A stretch of DNA of 64,000 nt. Origin: Sinomicrobium soli (GTDB lineage: Bacteria; Bacteroidota; Bacteroidia; Flavobacteriales; Flavobacteriaceae). The stretch covers positions 62,001-126,000 of the forward strand of contig NZ_QLNV01000007.1 in the NCBI RefSeq assembly GCF_003285545.1. Reading direction: 5' to 3'. Below the pieces are notes generated by a model. It was not told where the DNA came from, did no database searches, and was given only the letters and a program-made list of their open reading frames with translations. A program made the translations under genes and the position numbers. Of this stretch, positions 50,910-59,550 are shown one piece after another (positions within the stretch are counted from its first letter, which is position 1; each line of letters begins with the position of its first letter).

Positions 50910-51227
50910 GTGAAAAGAAAAAGCAAACATAATAAAACCACCTATATTAAATTTCGCTGCACACAGTACGAAAAAAAGCTGCTGCGTATCAAAGCCAAAA
51001 GAGCCGGTTTGAGTATAAGTGCTTATTGCCGTATGGCCGTTATGGAAGACCGGATTGTGGAACGATTAACCGAAGAACAACTGGAGGCCTATAAAATGCT
51101 GGTACAGTACCACAACAATTTTAAACGCATTAGTAATATGTTCCGCAAACGAAACCCCAGACTGGCCGATGAAGTGCTCCGGTTGGCCCAGGAGATAAAA
51201 ACACACCTCTATAATTTTAAAAAATGA
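50910..51227 (+). CDS. MobC-like relaxosome accessory protein
   Basis: 105 residues from a GTG start. Ribbon-helix-helix-like N-terminus (YIKFRCTQYEKKLLRIKAKRAGLSISAYCRMAVM in pieces) followed by a helical tail (YHNNFKRISNMFRKRNPRLADEVL) matching the MobC family that binds oriT beside the relaxase. Its stop codon overlaps the relaxase start (ATGA). Confidence 0.85.
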   Translation: MKRKSKHNKTTYIKFRCTQYEKKLLRIKAKRAGLSISAYCRMAVMEDRIVERLTEEQLEAYKMLVQYHNNFKRISNMFRKRNPRLADEVLRLAQEIKTHLYNFKK

Positions 51228-52099
51228 TCGGTAAAGGACAGGCCATAGCACATACGCAGGCTTCCATACAATACGGATGGAACCAGGAAAAGAATGCCGA
51301 AATCGTCTATACCCAAAACCTTTGTGGAGATAACCCAAAGGAGGTGACCAAAGAATTTCAAATGATACAGCAGATGAATGTACGTTGTGAAAAAAACACC
51401 CTGAGTTTTGTGCTTAGTCCTACTATTGAAGATGGCCAAACGTTAAGCCGGGAAGATCTGGAAGAACTTACCGATACTTTTATGAAAGAAATGGAATTAG
51501 GCGAACGGCAGGCTATTGCCTTTGTGCACCGGGATAAAGCCCATACCCATATTCATTTATATGTGAATCGAATTGATTTCCAGGGCAAGGCTTATAAGGA
51601 TAATTATATCGGCAAGCGAAGCCAGCAGGCCGCCGAACGAACAGCCCGACAATTACAACTCACCACGGTGCGGGAAGTACAGGAAGAAAAGACCATGGCT
51701 TTAAAACCTATCCGACAGGAGATCAAAACCATCCATGAAATGGTAATGCGGGAACAGCGTCCCCGGGACTTTGACCAGTATATCCAACTCATGCAACAAA
51801 ACCGGGTCAAAGTAACCCCTTATATCAATAAATCCGACCAGTTACAGGGGTTCCGATTTCAGTACAAATCTTATAACCTGAAGGGAAGCGAAGTGCACCG
51901 GGATATGTCCGGAGGAAAACTGGCCATGGCCATTTCCCAGAACCAACGGTTCGGCCAAAAACTGATACAGAACAACCAGGTAAAACTCATGGGTAAAGCT
52001 GTGGAACTAAGCAGTAATATTACGGTCAAAATTGCTAAAGAGCTGGCAAAACAAGTCGCCAAAAGGGCTATGGATACAGGTTTCGGAATGGGATATTAA
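51224..52099 (+). CDS. Relaxase/mobilization nuclease (MobA/VirD2 type)
   Basis: 291 residues. The metal-binding histidine triad is in HTHIHLYVNR at about residues 107-116 (His107, His109, His111); the N-terminal region TQASIQYGW contains the conserved relaxase start, where Tyr17 may be the nicking residue. A short C-terminal helical region lacks a primase or helicase domain, so the element depends on a conjugative helper. Overlaps mobC by 4 nt. Confidence 0.92.
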   Translation: MIGKGQAIAHTQASIQYGWNQEKNAEIVYTQNLCGDNPKEVTKEFQMIQQMNVRCEKNTLSFVLSPTIEDGQTLSREDLEELTDTFMKEMELGERQAIAFVHRDKAHTHIHLYVNRIDFQGKAYKDNYIGKRSQQAAERTARQLQLTTVREVQEEKTMALKPIRQEIKTIHEMVMREQRPRDFDQYIQLMQQNRVKVTPYINKSDQLQGFRFQYKSYNLKGSEVHRDMSGGKLAMAISQNQRFGQKLIQNNQVKLMGKAVELSSNITVKIAKELAKQVAKRAMDTGFGMGY

Positions 52100-54045: not shown

Positions 54046-54321
54046 TTATTTCGTCTTTAATTCTTTGATGTACTTATCTACATTAATTTCTAACTCAAGT
54101 AGAGTTATTGTCTTTAAATCCAATGCCTTGGCCAAAAGGATTAATTTATCTAAGGTAGGGTTTGCTTCTCCTCTTTCAACAGTCCCTATGAAGAATTTGG
54201 TTAAACCAGTATTACTGTCAGCGAGTTCTTGTTGAGAAATATGTTCTTTATCATACTCTTTACTTGGTATTTTTTCCCTAAGTTCTAATAAATACTTCCC
54301 AAGTTTTTCCTTTTCAGTCAC
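54046..54321 (-). CDS. XRE-family helix-turn-helix regulator
   Basis: 91 residues from a GTG start. Helix-turn-helix core: ISQQELADSNTGLTKFFIGTVERGEANPTLDKLILLAKAL in pieces, with a short C-terminal extension that may dimerise. Divergent from the structured leader and sigma-dCas12f operon; a near-palindrome (54371-54392) lies between the two promoters, so this is a candidate repressor of the module. A C-terminal tail from LKTITLLELEINVDKYI onward has no known domain. Confidence 0.8.
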   Translation of the reverse strand: MTEKEKLGKYLLELREKIPSKEYDKEHISQQELADSNTGLTKFFIGTVERGEANPTLDKLILLAKALDLKTITLLELEINVDKYIKELKTK

Positions 54322-54370
54322 GCCTTTTTTTATTTGGAATCTTTAAATTTCTTACTTATCTCAAGAAATA

Positions 54371-54392
54371 ATGGTATGATATATCTTACCAT
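54371..54392. promoter_or_regulatory. Near-perfect 22-bp palindrome, candidate operator
   Basis: ATGGTATGATATATCTTACC continuing AT: arms ATGGTA and TACCAT and core GATATATC, symmetric except for one opposed T-T pair. Located between the divergent XRE gene and the TAAATTTG promoter. Confidence 0.55.
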
Positions 54393-54426
54393 TTATGATT
54401 TTTTATTATATTTGTATGGATTAATA

Positions 54427-54434
54427 TAAATTTG
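54427..54434 (+). promoter_or_regulatory. -7 element TAAATTTG of the sigma-dCas12f leader
   Basis: Exact TAnnTTTG match 35 nt right of the palindrome. Predicted transcript would start near 54440, giving a leader of about 310 nt before the sigma ATG. Confidence 0.5.
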
Positions 54435-54439
54435 CAATT

Positions 54440-54620
54440 CTTCAAATAGAAAATATTGGAAGCAATTGCTTTGAATCTCGAACAGAAAACTGGCACTTTT
54501 CATTTACAGCGAGAGGATAAGTAAGATTGCTCACGACCCGGGCGTGGGCTCTTTTATCGCTGTAAGGTATGCCAGTACCCCTGTTCGATAAGTAGAGTTC
54601 CACGCCCATCCATTTTCTAT
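54440..54620 (+). ncRNA. Highly structured leader or RNA upstream of the sigma gene
   Basis: Two long stems can form. Stem A: CGAACAG (54479-54485) with CTGTTCG (54581-54587), ACTGGCA (54489-54495) with TGCCAGT (54570-54576), TTACAGCGA (54504-54512) with TCGCTGTAA (54557-54565). Stem B: GGGCGTGG (54540-54547) with CCACGCCC (54600-54607), CTCT with AGAG (54594-54597), TTATCG with CGATAA (54586-54591). They share bases and so either exclude each other or form a pseudoknot. TCGCTGTAAGGTATGCC recalls the Cas12f tracrRNA core as I remember it. Either a tracr-like RNA or a regulatory leader; it contains the guide match at 54542. The remaining 54621-54751 has no clear signal. Confidence 0.6.
54542..54557 (+). 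other. Putative self-target of the guide (15/16 match)
   Basis: GCGTGGGCTCT followed by TTTAT here, and GCGTGGGCTCT followed by CTTAT at 56734-56749: one mismatch at position 12. The perfect 11 nt is the TAM-proximal end, where Cas12 enzymes need the best match. It lies 210 bp before the sigma start; the base just 5' is G. Confidence 0.6.
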
Positions 54621-54751
54621 CATGGGCTTTCTCAATAACTCTTCTTTTCTAAAGCAAAGGTTTCTGCATAAAATCACTATGAAGTCTTGCAAGGGAATTT
54701 GTTGCCCTAAGTATTCCAAAAGCAAAATCCATCTGTAAAACTTTATACCCT

Positions 54752-55558
54752 ATGAAAAGTATACACAATCCCTTGGCAAAGTATTTTGAGTTATTAAAAA
54801 GTGGGGAACCTTCTGCTTTAGAATACGTTCATGCTCAATATCGTGGTATCATATTTTGGGTCGGTAAAAGAATGCTAAATGATCATTTCGTCATAGAATC
54901 TTTGGTTCAGGATACTTTTTTAAAGTTATGGGTTCACAAGGATAGGATAGAAAGACCTGAGCACATTCTCTATTTCTTAAAGTTTGTGATGAAAAGGGAA
55001 TGTATTTCATACTATACCAAACCCAGGAATAAATTTTTCAGGAAAATCAATTCCTTAGAGGATTACGACAATTACCAGGACTATATGGCAGGGTACGACC
55101 CGGCAAGTATGTCTGAAAACCTGGAAGACCAGGAGTCGGAGCAAAAGGCCTTCGACCGGATCAAAAGCGTATTACCCCTTCTCAATGCAGAAAGAAGGCA
55201 TTTAATTGAACTCTGTTTAAAATACGGCTTTCGGTATAAAGCCATTGCCGAGGTTATAGGAAAGGGTATCACCGAAACCAGCAACGAGGTAAAAATGGCT
55301 ATTCAGGACATTAAAACTATCGTCCATCATGGAAATACACCCACATACAGGCAAAAGTCTCCTGGTAGCGATATAAAGGTTTCGGACGTGATGAGCGAGG
55401 AACAGGAAAGGATATTGGAACTCAGATGCGACAAGAAATATTCCTTTGCGCTGATTGCCGAAACGCTGAACTTATCCCAAAAGCAAATTCACAAAGAATT
55501 TGTAACCGCGTATAAGTTCATCCAGGAGAAGCATAATCTACAATTAGAATCCGCTTAG
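54752..55558 (+). CDS. ECF-like sigma factor with extra C-terminal helix-turn-helix, paired with dCas12f
   Basis: 268 residues. Region 2 at about 24-90 ([36 protein letters not shown]); region 4 at about 133-192 ([31 protein letters not shown]-like). After a linker (193-213) an additional HTH-like unit appears at 214-260 ([40 protein letters not shown]), absent from ordinary ECF sigma factors. It is followed after 1 nt by the Cas12f-like gene, so the two are translated together. The probable role is to bring RNA polymerase to sites picked by the RNA-guided partner; the pairing is inferred from gene order and from recalled work on dCas12f-sigma systems. No anti-sigma gene is present. Confidence 0.82.
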
Positions 55559-55559
55559 T

Positions 55560-56657
55560 ATGGAAAAATCTACCCTAAAATTGACCCGAAAAATCCAGTT
55601 ACTGATTGATTTACCTACTAAAGAAGAACGGAAGGAAAAACTGGATAAACTCTACCAGTGGCAGAACAGATGCTTTAGAGCAGCTAACCTTATTGTTTCC
55701 CATTTGTATGTACAGGAAATGGTCAAGGAATTCTTCTATCTATCAGAAGGGATAAAGTATAAACTGGCCGATGAAAAAAAAGATGAGCAAGGAATCTTGC
55801 AACGCTCCCGTATCAATACGACCTATCGCGTGGTATCAGATCGCTTTAAAGGGGACATCCCTACAAACATATTGTCCAACCTGAACAGGACCTTGATCGC
55901 CTCCTTTAACAAAAATAAGTCCGAATACTGGAAAGGCGAACGCTCGCTGAAGAATTTCAGGAGGGACATGGCTTTTCCTTTTGGTCCCGAGTGCCTCAGC
56001 GGATTATCCTTTAACACGGAGAAACAGGTCTTTTGCTTTCGTTTGTTTCAAATCCCTTTTCGTACTTACCTGGGAAAAGATCACACCGATAAACGAAGAC
56101 TATTGGAGCGAGTGATAAAAGGGGAAACCAAACTTTGTACTTCCCATATCAAACTAAAGGATGGTAAAATCTTCTGGCTGCCTGTTTTTGAAGTCGAAAA
56201 AGAAAAACATGGGCTAAGACCGGAAGTGATAGCGGAGGCTTCTTTGTCTCTTGAATATCCCATTGTAGTGAAGACTGTTAACGCCAGGCTCACCATTGGC
56301 ACCAAGGAAGAGTTCCTGTACAGGAGATTGGCCATACAGGCAGCCCTTAAAAGGGCACAGATCGGGGCGACCTATTCCAGATCGGGCAAAGGGGTTGAAA
56401 GAAAATTAAAGGCGGTGAACAAACTCCGCAGTGCGGAAAGCAATTATCTACACCATCGTATACACGTATACAGCAGGAGATTGATCGATTTTTGCATTAA
56501 ACATCAGGCAGGAACGCTCATTTTATTAAATCAGGAGGACAAGATCGGGATCGCTAAGGAGGAAGAATTTGTATTGCGGAACTGGAGTTATTATGAACTC
56601 ATGACAAAAATAAAGTACAAAGCCGAGAAAGCAGGTATTGAACTCATCATAGATTAA
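55560..56657 (+). CDS. Nuclease-dead Cas12f/TnpB-like RNA-guided protein (truncated RuvC)
   Basis: 365 residues. The C-terminal half has the TnpB/Cas12f RuvC layout: bridge-like helices with RRLAIQAALKRAQIGATYSR, GKGVERKLKAVNKLR, LHHRIHVYSRRLIDFCIKH, and the late WSYYELMTKIKYKAEKAGIEL signature. The catalytic residues are missing: RuvC-I, normally GIDLG, reads SLSLE (Ser230 in place of Asp), RuvC-II reads LILLNQ (Leu323/Asn324 in place of Glu), and the protein ends at ELIID, before the zinc ribbon and third catalytic Asp. Hence it should bind but not cut. The N-terminal half (1-220) fits WED/REC. Starts 1 nt after the sigma stop. A guide-like RNA follows directly. Confidence 0.85.
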   Translation: MEKSTLKLTRKIQLLIDLPTKEERKEKLDKLYQWQNRCFRAANLIVSHLYVQEMVKEFFYLSEGIKYKLADEKKDEQGILQRSRINTTYRVVSDRFKGDIPTNILSNLNRTLIASFNKNKSEYWKGERSLKNFRRDMAFPFGPECLSGLSFNTEKQVFCFRLFQIPFRTYLGKDHTDKRRLLERVIKGETKLCTSHIKLKDGKIFWLPVFEVEKEKHGLRPEVIAEASLSLEYPIVVKTVNARLTIGTKEEFLYRRLAIQAALKRAQIGATYSRSGKGVERKLKAVNKLRSAESNYLHHRIHVYSRRLIDFCIKHQAGTLILLNQEDKIGIAKEEEFVLRNWSYYELMTKIKYKAEKAGIELIID

Positions 56658-56659
56658 GA

Positions 56660-56760
56660 AGTCTATCGAGGGTGCTTGTACACCCGTAAGGTGAGGTCAA
56701 TGACACTCACTAAATACGAACAGTATATACAACGCGTGGGCTCTCTTATTTTACAGACCT
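56660..56760 (+). ncRNA. Putative guide RNA: scaffold and guide after dCas12f
   Basis: Directly after the dCas12f stop. Hairpin GGGTG-CTTGTA-CACCC (56670-56685), then GTAAGGT (56686-56692), hairpin GTGAG/CTCAC with inner GTC/GAC (56691-56710), and a linker ending TATATACAAC at 56733; Cas12f repeats as I remember them also end in AAC. The guide would begin at 56734 (GCGTGGGCTCTCTTAT). GTAAGGT is also found in the upstream structured leader. TTTACAGACC at 56751 can pair with GGTCTGTAAA in the IS end, possibly terminating the RNA. Borders are estimated from structure only. Confidence 0.6.
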
Positions 56761-56769
56761 AAATTTTCG

Positions 56770-56777
56770 GATAAACA
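56770..56777 (-). repeat. Reverse-complement copy of the IS256 target duplication (GATAAACA)
   Basis: Exactly adjoins the isolated IS right end and is the reverse complement of TGTTTATC at 52645-52652. Confidence 0.6.
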
Positions 56778-56845
56778 GGGTCTGTAAATTAAACTCTGTC
56801 TGATTGTTCTCCCCTGCGGGGGGTACCCCCCGCAGGGGAGGCCGC
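56778..56845 (-). mobile_element. Isolated right end of IS256, inverted
   Basis: 68 bp matching the right end of the complete IS (53922-53991) in the opposite orientation, including GGGTCTGTAAATTAAACTCT and the 32-bp palindrome. No transposase sequence is attached. It borders the sigma-dCas12f module on the right. Confidence 0.85.
56809..56840. repeat. Second 32-bp perfect palindrome, covarying
   Basis: CTCCCCTGCGGGGGGT and its exact mirror ACCCCCCGCAGGGGAG. Compared with 53929-53960 the T is G on one arm and the A is C on the other, so the symmetry was kept. Confidence 0.9.
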
Positions 56846-56854
56846 CATTCCATT

Positions 56855-57718
56855 TTAATTCAACTCCATGGCTTTTAAAATTCTGCCATCACTTAATTTC
56901 CATTCCGTAAGCCCATTAGCACTTCTTCCCATAACAATAGCTGCGGCAGCCGACGGACTGGTAAATAAATAATCCTCTTTAAAAATATATTTACCATTGT
57001 TAAAAACAACCATCCCCTCTTCTAATAACCTTTCCCTAAGACGTAACCAATTTTTAGGAAATGATTTTGTGACAGATTTGGCTATTTCAGAATCTTTCAA
57101 AACCACAAATCCCTCAGTAGTACTTTGTCCTCGTGCATTGGCACCTCTGGCAGCTTCAATAAAAAAAGTATTATTGATTTGCTCTTCAACCGACTGATTA
57201 TCTGGTCTTAGTTCCTCAAAGATTTTAAAACCAAGAGCATTAACAAGAAGCTTAATATTTTCAATAAATTCTTCCATTTCAGCTTCATCAGATTCAGCGA
57301 TACTAGGCCGGGGAGGGATATTACCATTGTTTAAAGAATACCTGTTCACTTTAAGGGCAATTTCATAAAGGCGACTTTCAAGGTATTTAATATGGGCCTT
57401 GTTAAGGTTTTCATCTTTGCTAACAAAGACCAATGCTTCGGTCCAAAAATCTTTAGCAGATAGGTGCTGTGTAAGCCTTTTATAGATACCTTCGGCTTCT
57501 CCAATGTAGGCAAGATCCTTTTCATCAGGATCTTCGGATTTTCCAAATAAAATATATACCCCGGTGTTCTCTAGTTCTGGACGATCAAAAGAATCTTTTA
57601 CCTTTTTTCGTGGTATCTTAAATGCTTTACCCGTCCAGTTAGATAATTCACATGTCATCCTACCATTGGGATGCCCATCAACAAGAAATATTTTAATGGT
57701 TTTGCCAAAGTTCTTCAT
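56855..57718 (-). CDS. GIY-YIG nuclease-type protein with DUF4357 domain
   Basis: 287 residues. GIY-YIG motif at about residues 53-90 (GVYILFGKSEDPDEKDLAYIGEAEGIYKRL in pieces) with the downstream LESRLYEIA glutamate; a C-terminal DUF4357 domain (about 230-285: LFTSPSAAAAIVMGRSANGLTEWKL). Such proteins are common on mobile islands and defence loci, but the target is unknown. It starts the accessory segment right of the IS remnant; its 3' end lies 9 nt from that remnant. Confidence 0.9.
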   Translation of the reverse strand: MKNFGKTIKIFLVDGHPNGRMTCELSNWTGKAFKIPRKKVKDSFDRPELENTGVYILFGKSEDPDEKDLAYIGEAEGIYKRLTQHLSAKDFWTEALVFVSKDENLNKAHIKYLESRLYEIALKVNRYSLNNGNIPPRPSIAESDEAEMEEFIENIKLLVNALGFKIFEELRPDNQSVEEQINNTFFIEAARGANARGQSTTEGFVVLKDSEIAKSVTKSFPKNWLRLRERLLEEGMVVFNNGKYIFKEDYLFTSPSAAAAIVMGRSANGLTEWKLSDGRILKAMELN

Positions 57719-57956: not shown

Positions 57957-58565
57957 GTGACTAAAAAAGATATAGAAACAAAAATATTAAAATCTTCGAG
58001 AGGATCATTATTCTTCGCTGATAATTTTAGCACCTATGCCTCTCCGGATAACATACGTCAAGTCTTGTCTCGTTTAGAAAAAGAAGGTTTATTGGTACGT
58101 TTAGCCCACGGCATTTACCTCAAACCCAAAACAGACGAGATCCTTGGTGTCATTTACCCGGATACTGAAGAAATTGCCCGGCAAATTGCCAAACGGGACA
58201 AGGCACGAATCGCACCTACAGGTGTACTGGCATTATATCTCCTGGGCCTTACCACCCAGGTCCCTCTAAAAACCGTGTACCTTACTGACGGTTCGCAGCG
58301 AGAAATAAAAATCGGCAACCGCACCATAAAATTCAAAAAAACTGCTCCCAAAACGTTTGCCATTAAAGACGAACTGCTACAGCTTATTGTTCAGGCTTTT
58401 AAAGAAAAAGGGCAAAAAGAAGCAGTCGAAGATTTTTTGGTAAAAATACAACCTGCTATACAACAGCTCGAACCCAAAGTCATTGAAAAACAACTGCCAT
58501 ACGCCCCGGTATGGATTCAGAAAGCAGTCCGTAAACTTTATAAACCTGACAACGATGTGGAGTAA
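57957..58565 (+). CDS. AbiEi-type (DUF6088) antitoxin
   Basis: 202 residues from a GTG start. N-terminal winged helix (ILKSSRGSLFFADNFSTYASPDNIRQVLSRLEKEGLLVRLAHGIYLKP in pieces) and a C-terminal domain of the AbiEi/DUF6088 type (ARIAPTGVLALYLLGLTTQVP, VYLTDGSQREIKIG). It should repress its own promoter through the inverted repeat at 57904 and counter the AbiEii toxin. Overlaps the toxin gene by 11 nt. Confidence 0.9.
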   Translation: MTKKDIETKILKSSRGSLFFADNFSTYASPDNIRQVLSRLEKEGLLVRLAHGIYLKPKTDEILGVIYPDTEEIARQIAKRDKARIAPTGVLALYLLGLTTQVPLKTVYLTDGSQREIKIGNRTIKFKKTAPKTFAIKDELLQLIVQAFKEKGQKEAVEDFLVKIQPAIQQLEPKVIEKQLPYAPVWIQKAVRKLYKPDNDVE

Positions 58566-59550
58566 TCTCAACGCGGAACAAAGGCAACAAATATTACAGC
58601 AGGTAAGTGCAAAAACCGGCTTACCTACCTATGTGATAGAAAAAGACTGGTGGGTTTGCCTGGTGTTAAGAGCAGTTTTTAAAACTCGATATGCCGGTTC
58701 CATTTTTTTCAAAGGGGGTACTTCGTTAAGTAAAGCCTATCAGCTTATCGAACGCTTTTCTGAAGACATTGATTTAATTATTGACAGGCATTTACTGGGT
58801 TTTGATGAATTAGACTCAAAAACCAAAATCAAGAAACTGAGAAAAGCTTCCGGTAGATTTATTATTACGGAATTTCAGAAAGCATTAACAGAGCAAATTA
58901 GCCTATTGGGAATAAAAGATCATCAATACGAAATACGATATAACGATCATGTAGATGATACAAGCGACCCTAATACCCTGGAAATAATATACGAGTCCCT
59001 TACCTCCAACCGGAATACCTATATTCAACCACGTGTTTTGTTGGAAATGGGTGCACGCTCGTTAACCGAACCTTCTGAAGACCGTTCTATTAACTCTTAT
59101 ATAGATGAGCAATACAAAGATCTGCCTTTTGCATTGCCAGCTTTTGATGTCCAGGTTGTAATTCCAGCAAAAACTTTTCTTGAAAAAACCCTGTTACTGC
59201 ATGAAGAGTTTTCCAAACCAACGGAAAAAATAAGAACCGATAGGCTTACCAGGCATTTGTATGATTTGGAAAAATTAATGAACACTCCTCATGGTAAATT
59301 AGCTATAGAGGATGATGAGCTGTTTGCAACCATAGTAGCACATCGAAAAAAAGTAACTCCTTTGCGTGGTCTGGATTATTCCCGTCACAAAAAGGGAAAA
59401 TTAAGCATTATTCCACCAGATACGGTTATCAAAGATTGGGAGCAGGATTACAAAACCATGCAGGAAAATATGATTGTGGGCGAAAGTCTGCCGTGGAGAA
59501 AACTCATGGAAAGAATGAAAGAAATAGAAAATAAATTGAACCAATTATAA
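58555..59550 (+). CDS. AbiEii-type nucleotidyltransferase toxin
   Basis: 331 residues from the ATG at 58555. Nucleotidyltransferase motifs: FFKGGTSLSKAY at about residues 51-62 and FSEDIDLII with Asp71 and Asp73. The C-terminal region (TRHLYDLEKLM) fits AbiEii. In type IV AbiE systems the toxin modifies tRNA and blocks growth on phage infection. The 345-nt gap after it holds GACCGATTA repeats (about 59600-59660) and an 11-bp tandem array. Confidence 0.93.
   Translation: MWSNLNAEQRQQILQQVSAKTGLPTYVIEKDWWVCLVLRAVFKTRYAGSIFFKGGTSLSKAYQLIERFSEDIDLIIDRHLLGFDELDSKTKIKKLRKASGRFIITEFQKALTEQISLLGIKDHQYEIRYNDHVDDTSDPNTLEIIYESLTSNRNTYIQPRVLLEMGARSLTEPSEDRSINSYIDEQYKDLPFALPAFDVQVVIPAKTFLEKTLLLHEEFSKPTEKIRTDRLTRHLYDLEKLMNTPHGKLAIEDDELFATIVAHRKKVTPLRGLDYSRHKKGKLSIIPPDTVIKDWEQDYKTMQENMIVGESLPWRKLMERMKEIENKLNQL

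Follow-up and report, generated by a model that had tools for sequence, protein, structure and literature searches.

A guide RNA in Sinomicrobium soli matches a conserved family of structured leaders, including the leader of its own dCas12f-sigmaE module

Introduction

Which DNA does an RNA-guided transcription module seek out in its own host? The question is raised by a locus of Sinomicrobium soli in which a gene for a sigma factor of the extracytoplasmic function (ECF) type is followed by a gene for a nuclease-dead Cas12f (dCas12f) and by a guide RNA. The locus lies within a stretch of 64,000 nucleotides (contig NZ_QLNV01000007.1, positions 62,001 to 126,000), hereafter the window, whose own numbering is used throughout. 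As a mechanism, RNA-guided transcription by dCas12f and sigma factors is known; its natural purpose is, to our knowledge, largely open. We consider it fairly probable, judging from sequence comparison, that the guides of two of the three module copies in this genome are aimed at one family of structured leaders, and that the complex would override the leader and thereby switch on the module itself together with other genes led by the same element.

The sigma-dCas12f module and its guide RNA

A first-pass annotation, made from the letters of the window alone, had described an ECF-like sigma gene, a TnpB/Cas12f-like gene that follows after 1 nt, and a guide-like RNA. Open reading frame coordinates, protein matches and alignment with related scaffolds agree with this description, and the parts of the module are as follows.

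54752 to 55558, forward strand: ECF-type sigma factor gene, 268 amino acids (open reading frame list; Pfam, PDB and NCBIfam matches)
55560 to 56657, forward strand: nuclease-dead Cas12f gene, 365 amino acids, which stops before the RuvC-III/zinc part of the nucleases (open reading frame list; PDB match)
56668 to 56733, forward strand: guide-RNA scaffold (aligned with 41 scaffold rows of related loci)
56734 to 56749, forward strand: guide, 16 nt that match the elements described below (sequence match)

The sigma protein carries the Pfam domain Sigma70_r2 (E value 6.8e-7), with region 4 narrowly under its cut-off, and matches both the sigma70-ECF family TIGR02937 (3.6e-19) and the chain 9n9q_C, named RpoE in the PDB (6.2e-111). 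The 365-residue protein aligns over residues 1 to 364 with the "Nuclease-deactivated Cas12f" of PDB entries 9n9c, 9n9m, 9n9o and 9n9q (4.2e-195), and the Cas12f/TnpB likeness proposed in the annotation is borne out over the full length. Because of this match to a solved nuclease-deactivated Cas12f, and of the match to its RpoE chain, positions 54752 to 56657 together with the guide RNA are, by sequence, a dCas12f-sigmaE RNA-guided transcription module of a known kind. The source of the four entries we take to be Flagellimonas (Allomuricauda) taeanensis.

The loss of nuclease activity claimed in the annotation is likewise supported by alignment with the Cas12f nuclease 9nzr, in which serine stands opposite the aspartate of VDLG and leucine opposite the glutamate of QMER, two residues that we take to be catalytic in RuvC; the serine is kept in 7/7 aligned dCas12f copies. 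The C-terminus falls approximately where the third catalytic part (RuvC-III) would come, and the protein lacks the intact RuvC site and the zinc/TNB domain of an active Cas12f/TnpB nuclease. Pfam returned a sub-threshold TNB stub only (0.13), and the NCBIfam model guided_TnpB gave 2.3e-15, yet stayed under its family cut-off. A structure prediction from 7 sequences had a mean predicted local distance difference test score of 43, too poor for a fold search to be based on it.

The wording "fused by operon" holds in so far as the genes adjoin, but no fused protein exists. Co-occurrence of the pair is wider than this genome: from 140 related loci of the genome collection, 80 were kept as named dCas12f loci, and the sigma gene adjoins 7/7 full-length dCas12f copies in the genomes of 80 relatives. 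Two of the outcomes that the annotation listed as refuting it, a missing match to Cas12f/TnpB and a lack of co-occurrence in other genomes, are thus not what was observed. The annotation had further held that delivery of a promoter to a target is the only sensible use of such a pair; a reading as RNA-guided transcription is supported, but the "only" exceeds what sequence can show. The 4.61-Mb genome of S. soli holds three copies of the module, namely the window copy, one 94% identical and one 80% identical to it, and the closest named relatives of the window module belong to Sinomicrobium.

The scaffold ends in ACAAC and is followed by the 16 nt GCGTGGGCTCTCTTAT, which copies 1 and 2 share and copy 3 does not. 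The fold of the guide RNA is not unusually stable (z -1.55). Between its sigma and dCas12f genes, copy 3 carries a second scaffold whose guide differs (L004:3072-3136, on contig C41 of the same genome), and in the window a perfect GC-rich inverted repeat, possibly a terminator, lies soon after the guide RNA (56809 to 56840).

Guide matches in the own genome and in others

Upstream of the sigma gene the guide meets its own match, within an element that has the following parts.

54471 to 54613, forward strand: structured leader element with helices P1 to P4 and an alternative hairpin (covariance model 156 bits, covariation, folding)
54541, forward strand: target-adjacent G before the guide match (sequence)
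54542 to 54557, forward strand: guide match in the module's own leader, 15/16, in the central strand of the element (sequence match)
54595 to 54607, forward strand: 3' arm of the alternative hairpin (GAG..CCACGCCC), then T-rich sequence (covariation, folding)

The apparent self-target of the annotation is this match of 56734-56749 to 54542-54557, with one mismatch and a G in front. Across the S. soli genome, eight sites fit the guide with at most two mismatches: two are guide-RNA genes and six are copies of one structured element. These six form the leaders of all three dCas12f-sigma operons or lie near genes for a HEPN-domain protein, a SusC protein and an ECF sigma factor, and every one of them has the G in front of the match (6/6). 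A seventh, more divergent element (L258:5842-5987, equal to C42:247841-247986; 100 bits) has no guide match with up to three mismatches; the open reading frame list holds no divergent helix-turn-helix (HTH) gene beside it and shows tandem small reading frames upstream on the same strand.

The same guide occurs in 13 other genomes, in which 45 sites were found at no more than two mismatches, as against 10 for the reversed control. Thirty of these sites were read and fell into 13 guide-RNA genes and 17 elements, with no other class; the base in front is C at 13/13 of the former and G at 17/17 of the latter. Fifteen sites were left unread, and two of these, changed in their first bases, look like chance. 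An element site is present in 12 of the 13 genomes, while the thirteenth, a metagenome-assembled genome, has the guide gene only.

All 80 named dCas12f loci have a scaffold match (up to 6 edits, an uncontrolled threshold), 122 matches in total, from which 112 guides could be parsed and 10 could not. Eighty of the 112 begin with (G)GCGTG when one change is allowed, 62 by a stricter rule, and at least one guide of this type is found by the loose rule in 61/80 loci; L140, L153 and L161, outside that count, appear element-like by eye. So common a start is unusual for a programmable guide, and it raises the quite improbable alternative that GCGTGGGCTC is a conserved part of the scaffold, whose identity with the leader would be inherited from a common ancestor sequence and not reflect targeting. 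The same scaffold position, however, holds guides of another type in 32/112 cases, copy 3 among them, loci with several guides vary directly after GCGTG, and in the 13 same-guide genomes the identity extends to 16 nt. An aim at the leader family accommodates these observations better in our view. Among the loci with several guides, L152, L157, L160 and L164 of Leeuwenhoekiella have a single dCas12f gene followed by an array of four to six guide RNAs, whose guides start alike and then diverge.

An element of their own lies upstream in 44/80 loci (E value 1e-27 or better), of which 23 are rows of the model itself, so that at most 21 are independent; of these, at least L110 and L175 are also represented in the model via other loci of the same place. 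By guide type, the element is present at 32/61 loci with element-type guides and at 12/19 of the others. Loci whose guides are clearly of another kind do have the element, among them L126 (F. taeanensis), L127, L132, L134, L154, L156, L162, L181 and L182.

A leader RNA with two competing folds

The structured leader noted in the annotation holds up in two ways: 0/200 shuffles fold as stably as 54471-54613 (z -3.3), and the element covaries among relatives. Covariation was assessed in 55 non-identical copies, after rows differing by fewer than 8 bases had been dropped. The P1 to P4 pairing is realised in 95.3% of cells, against at most 44.4% for slid versions, and 175 cells carry double changes, where shuffles average 52; for further pair types the excess is less clear, 6/500 shuffles attaining the observed value. 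Double changes occur in 7/7 pairs of P1, 5/5 of P3 (85.8% paired) and 2/6 of P2.

Pairing of the central strand with the downstream arm gives the alternative helix, whose two parts are 100% and 99.4% paired and have double changes in 2/7 and 1/3 pairs. Two sequences show concerted change in all three partners, namely the shared strand, the arm of P4 and the downstream arm. One CTTATC is faced by a GATAAG on both its upstream and its downstream side. For the window copy the free fold has -46.7 kcal/mol and the forced alternative -44.2, which places the two folds within 2.5 kcal/mol, and under the forced alternative the guide-match region forms the 5' arm. Behind the 3' arm a TTTT follows within 10 nt in 51/55 copies (60/440 in control windows further downstream), and at least 5 T among 10 nt are found in 55/55 (130/440). 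The leader RNA is therefore probably bistable, as far as sequence comparison and folding can tell: its central strand would pair either upstream, in P4, or with the downstream arm ahead of the T-run, in the manner of an attenuator. An Rfam search of 54320 to 56860, at E values up to 5, returned only the chance-like MIR6224 and SNORD31 and no leader family.

A proposed override of the leader

How might a guided sigma factor act on such a leader? In our proposal the dCas12f-guide complex would bind leader DNA at the central strand and, once bound, would place the sigma factor and RNA polymerase such that transcription starts downstream of this strand. In the published dCas12f-sigmaE system the start reportedly lies at a fixed distance past the R-loop, approximately 46 bp from the G. 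From the G to the 3' arm of the element there are 54-59 nt in 55/55 copies; the G stands at its column in all 55, in part as a matter of selection, as the core used to pick the copies includes it. If transcription began anywhere past the guide match but ahead of the 3' arm, the RNA would lack the central strand and could not form the alternative hairpin. The guided transcript would then escape the attenuator hairpin as well as the dependence on a promoter under control of the neighbouring HTH gene. We regard an override as the most economical reading, because starts beyond the guide match would yield RNA that lacks the switch strand. The module would in this manner activate itself by positive feedback, and with it the sister modules and further genes led by the element, for example those for SusC, which serves nutrient uptake, and for the HEPN-domain protein.

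Since the guide is identical to the 5' arm of the alternative hairpin over the arm's full extent, it could also act as RNA, as a mimic of the central strand that pairs in trans with the downstream arm of the leader and serves as anti-attenuator or decoy; many guides, for example in Chryseobacterium, match only the pairing part (GGCGTGGGYTC) and then run into T. We hold this unlikely: a short mimic needs neither dCas12f nor sigma, the related complexes were solved as dCas12f with RpoE and hence as partner machinery for DNA and RNA polymerase, and the distribution of G (17/17 elements) and C (13/13 guide genes) in front of the match fits recognition of DNA, albeit in part fixed by the conservation of the element.

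If the override holds, a natural target of such a system, a conserved leader family that includes the system's own leader, can be read from sequence. The predictions that follow are a regulon, a shift of the transcription start site and an autoregulatory loop. A structured RNA family of Bacteroidia is indicated as well, for which the stretch scanned gave no Rfam match.

Distribution and gene context of the element

The element is not confined to dCas12f loci. A 23-mer search allowing up to 3 mismatches found 36 copies in the genomes of 13/80 relatives, with 0 hits of the reversed pattern among the listed genomes; five of these 13 genomes have a full-length dCas12f, one a fragment of 52 residues and seven none at an E value of 1e-10. 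With the covariance model, at 1e-6, the element was detected in 50/295 genomes of the class (S. soli included) and in 32/156 genera. The 23-mer was not found in viral contigs, for which exact matches only were considered. Between the leader and its upstream neighbours, as well as further upstream, the window has the following features.

54046 to 54321, reverse strand: divergent small HTH (XRE-type) regulator gene, 91 amino acids (HTH_3, E value 8e-6)
54370 to 54393, unstranded: operator-like inverted repeat in the interval that separates the HTH gene from the leader (0/60 mononucleotide shuffles score as high)
54406 to 54414, forward strand: box of the TAnnTTTG type, candidate promoter of the leader (another such box near 54427)
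50910 to 52099, forward strand: neighbouring mobilization genes (NikA-like, 3e-22; relaxase, 3.1e-30)

The divergent XRE gene and the mobilizable surroundings of the annotation are both recovered here. A small divergent reading frame was identified by script upstream of 35/36 related elements and by separate reading at the 36th (L076), and 26/34 distinct divergent proteins match HTH_3 at 0.01. The three features named in the annotation, self-target, structured leader and divergent XRE gene, come down to a single one: a structured element of wide occurrence, of which the leader is one copy, is what the guide matches.

Operator-like repeats reach p ≤0.05 in 28/53 loci, each with a different sequence, and do not rise above shuffles in the other 25/53. 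The TAnnTTTG box, which we take to be the -7 motif of Bacteroidetes, occurs in 55/57 upstream regions, against 9/57 when these are read backwards. Repeats and boxes support, at the level of sequence motifs, a leader promoter that is separately controlled. With the guide site downstream of this candidate promoter, the complex might instead sit on the leader and block transcription from the HTH-controlled promoter, the sigma factor having another role; nuclease-dead TnpB relatives (TldR) are repressors. Repression of this kind is decidedly improbable in our estimate: the sigma gene is kept next door in all seven full-length copies of the relatives, and its product is a chain of the solved complex. 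Activation past the switch strand is the reading we retain.

Within 2.5 kb downstream and on the same strand, the 36 elements are followed by genes for SusC (11), ECF sigma factors (10), dCas12f (7), HEPN-type proteins (6), FecR (2) and a small family of no known type (7), for which Pfam gave no match; within 6 kb, SusC is found at 16 and SusD at 10. Pfam confirmed representatives of SusC, SusD, sigma, HEPN, NikA, relaxase and FecR. Mobilization genes (NikA-like, relaxase) lie near 6/36 elements.

Two further observations concern mobile and defensive neighbours. In Flavivirga algicola (G405), the P4 loop of the elements L305 and L318 is interrupted by the same flanking sequence, a third site (G405:C6:1333) is listed, and L318 has an IS110-family transposase alongside (Pfam Transposase_20, 2.8e-23; DEDD_Tnp_IS110, 5.8e-16); the leader may be an insertion site of an IS110-type element. 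Beside the island, at 57957 to 59550 of the window, DUF6088/AbiEi-like and AbiEii genes form an AbiE-type toxin-antitoxin pair.

Weighing the proposal

Several observations speak against the proposed override of a bistable leader. On the structural side, double changes in P4 are seen in 1/7 pairs only, the GATAAG arms are nearly invariant, so that covariation does not bear on them, and the tail of the window copy is CATCCATTTT, a weak T-run. Many elements reside in genomes without dCas12f, and their conservation is for this reason not due to targeting. Conversely, 32/80 named loci have no element of their own despite enough upstream sequence, 31 of them with nothing better than an E value of 0.5 and L120 with a weak match only; L111, L124, L131 and L151 have too little upstream DNA to be counted.

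The guides themselves are not uniform either. At three mismatches the own genome has 20 sites against 24 for the reversed pattern, and site counts at this threshold are uninformative for that reason. The two guides of copy 3 are unlike the element and have no convincing target at up to two mismatches in the own genome, where one has 12 scattered sites besides its own gene and the other 8. The guide of F. taeanensis is also unlike the element, and no convincing target was found in its genome; two sites with two mismatches, besides its own gene, were rejected, as both lie inside coding sequence and outside elements. The unusual guides of 15 further genomes mostly agree just in part with the elements of their own genomes, and Leeuwenhoekiella, whose loci hold four to six guides each, gave no full match of guide and element. 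On the other side, a rare guide and a rare element that occur together in the genome of Salegentibacter sp. 24 agree at 16 of the first 17 nt, and a G precedes the match. Altogether, the sequence evidence for guide and element changing together is mixed.

A wider proposal can be put more tentatively. It is possible, and we stop short of calling it probable, that the element represents a bistable leader-RNA family new to description, which in Bacteroidia neighbours divergent HTH genes and precedes operons such as those of SusC/SusD, and on which a dCas12f-sigmaE module with a central-strand guide would act in trans as a family-wide override. This would entail a start moved past the switch strand, self-activation via the same leader, and, in genomes like that of S. 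soli, a cascade over sister modules that have leaders of this family but other guides.

Comparison with known systems

The module itself is not new, because a solved system has the same pair of proteins, the same order of genes and this type of scaffold. What appears to be new, as judged from the matches, is the target: a guide aimed at a conserved family of structured leaders, its own leader included. A search of the open-licence literature, bioRxiv excluded, found nothing on a guide aimed at a conserved structured leader, nor on the leader itself.

The dCas12f-sigmaE system, reportedly described by Hoffmann and co-workers, is the closest comparison. The window module resembles that of F. taeanensis in both proteins over their full length, in gene order, in the type of scaffold and in the G that precedes the predicted targets, a G motif being reported for the published system as well. 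The two differ in their guides, since that of F. taeanensis departs from the element, even though its own operon has an element leader, whereas the window guide appears aimed at the element family.

TldR (on which see PMC13418256) is likewise nuclease-dead and RNA-guided and regulates genes for surface proteins. It is, however, a repressor without a sigma partner, and the window dCas12f belongs by best match to another branch. With attenuators and riboswitches that rely on mutually exclusive helices the leader shares covarying stems, competing helices around a common strand and a T-run; it differs from them in that it has no Rfam match in the stretch searched, has no known ligand, and would double as a guided DNA target.
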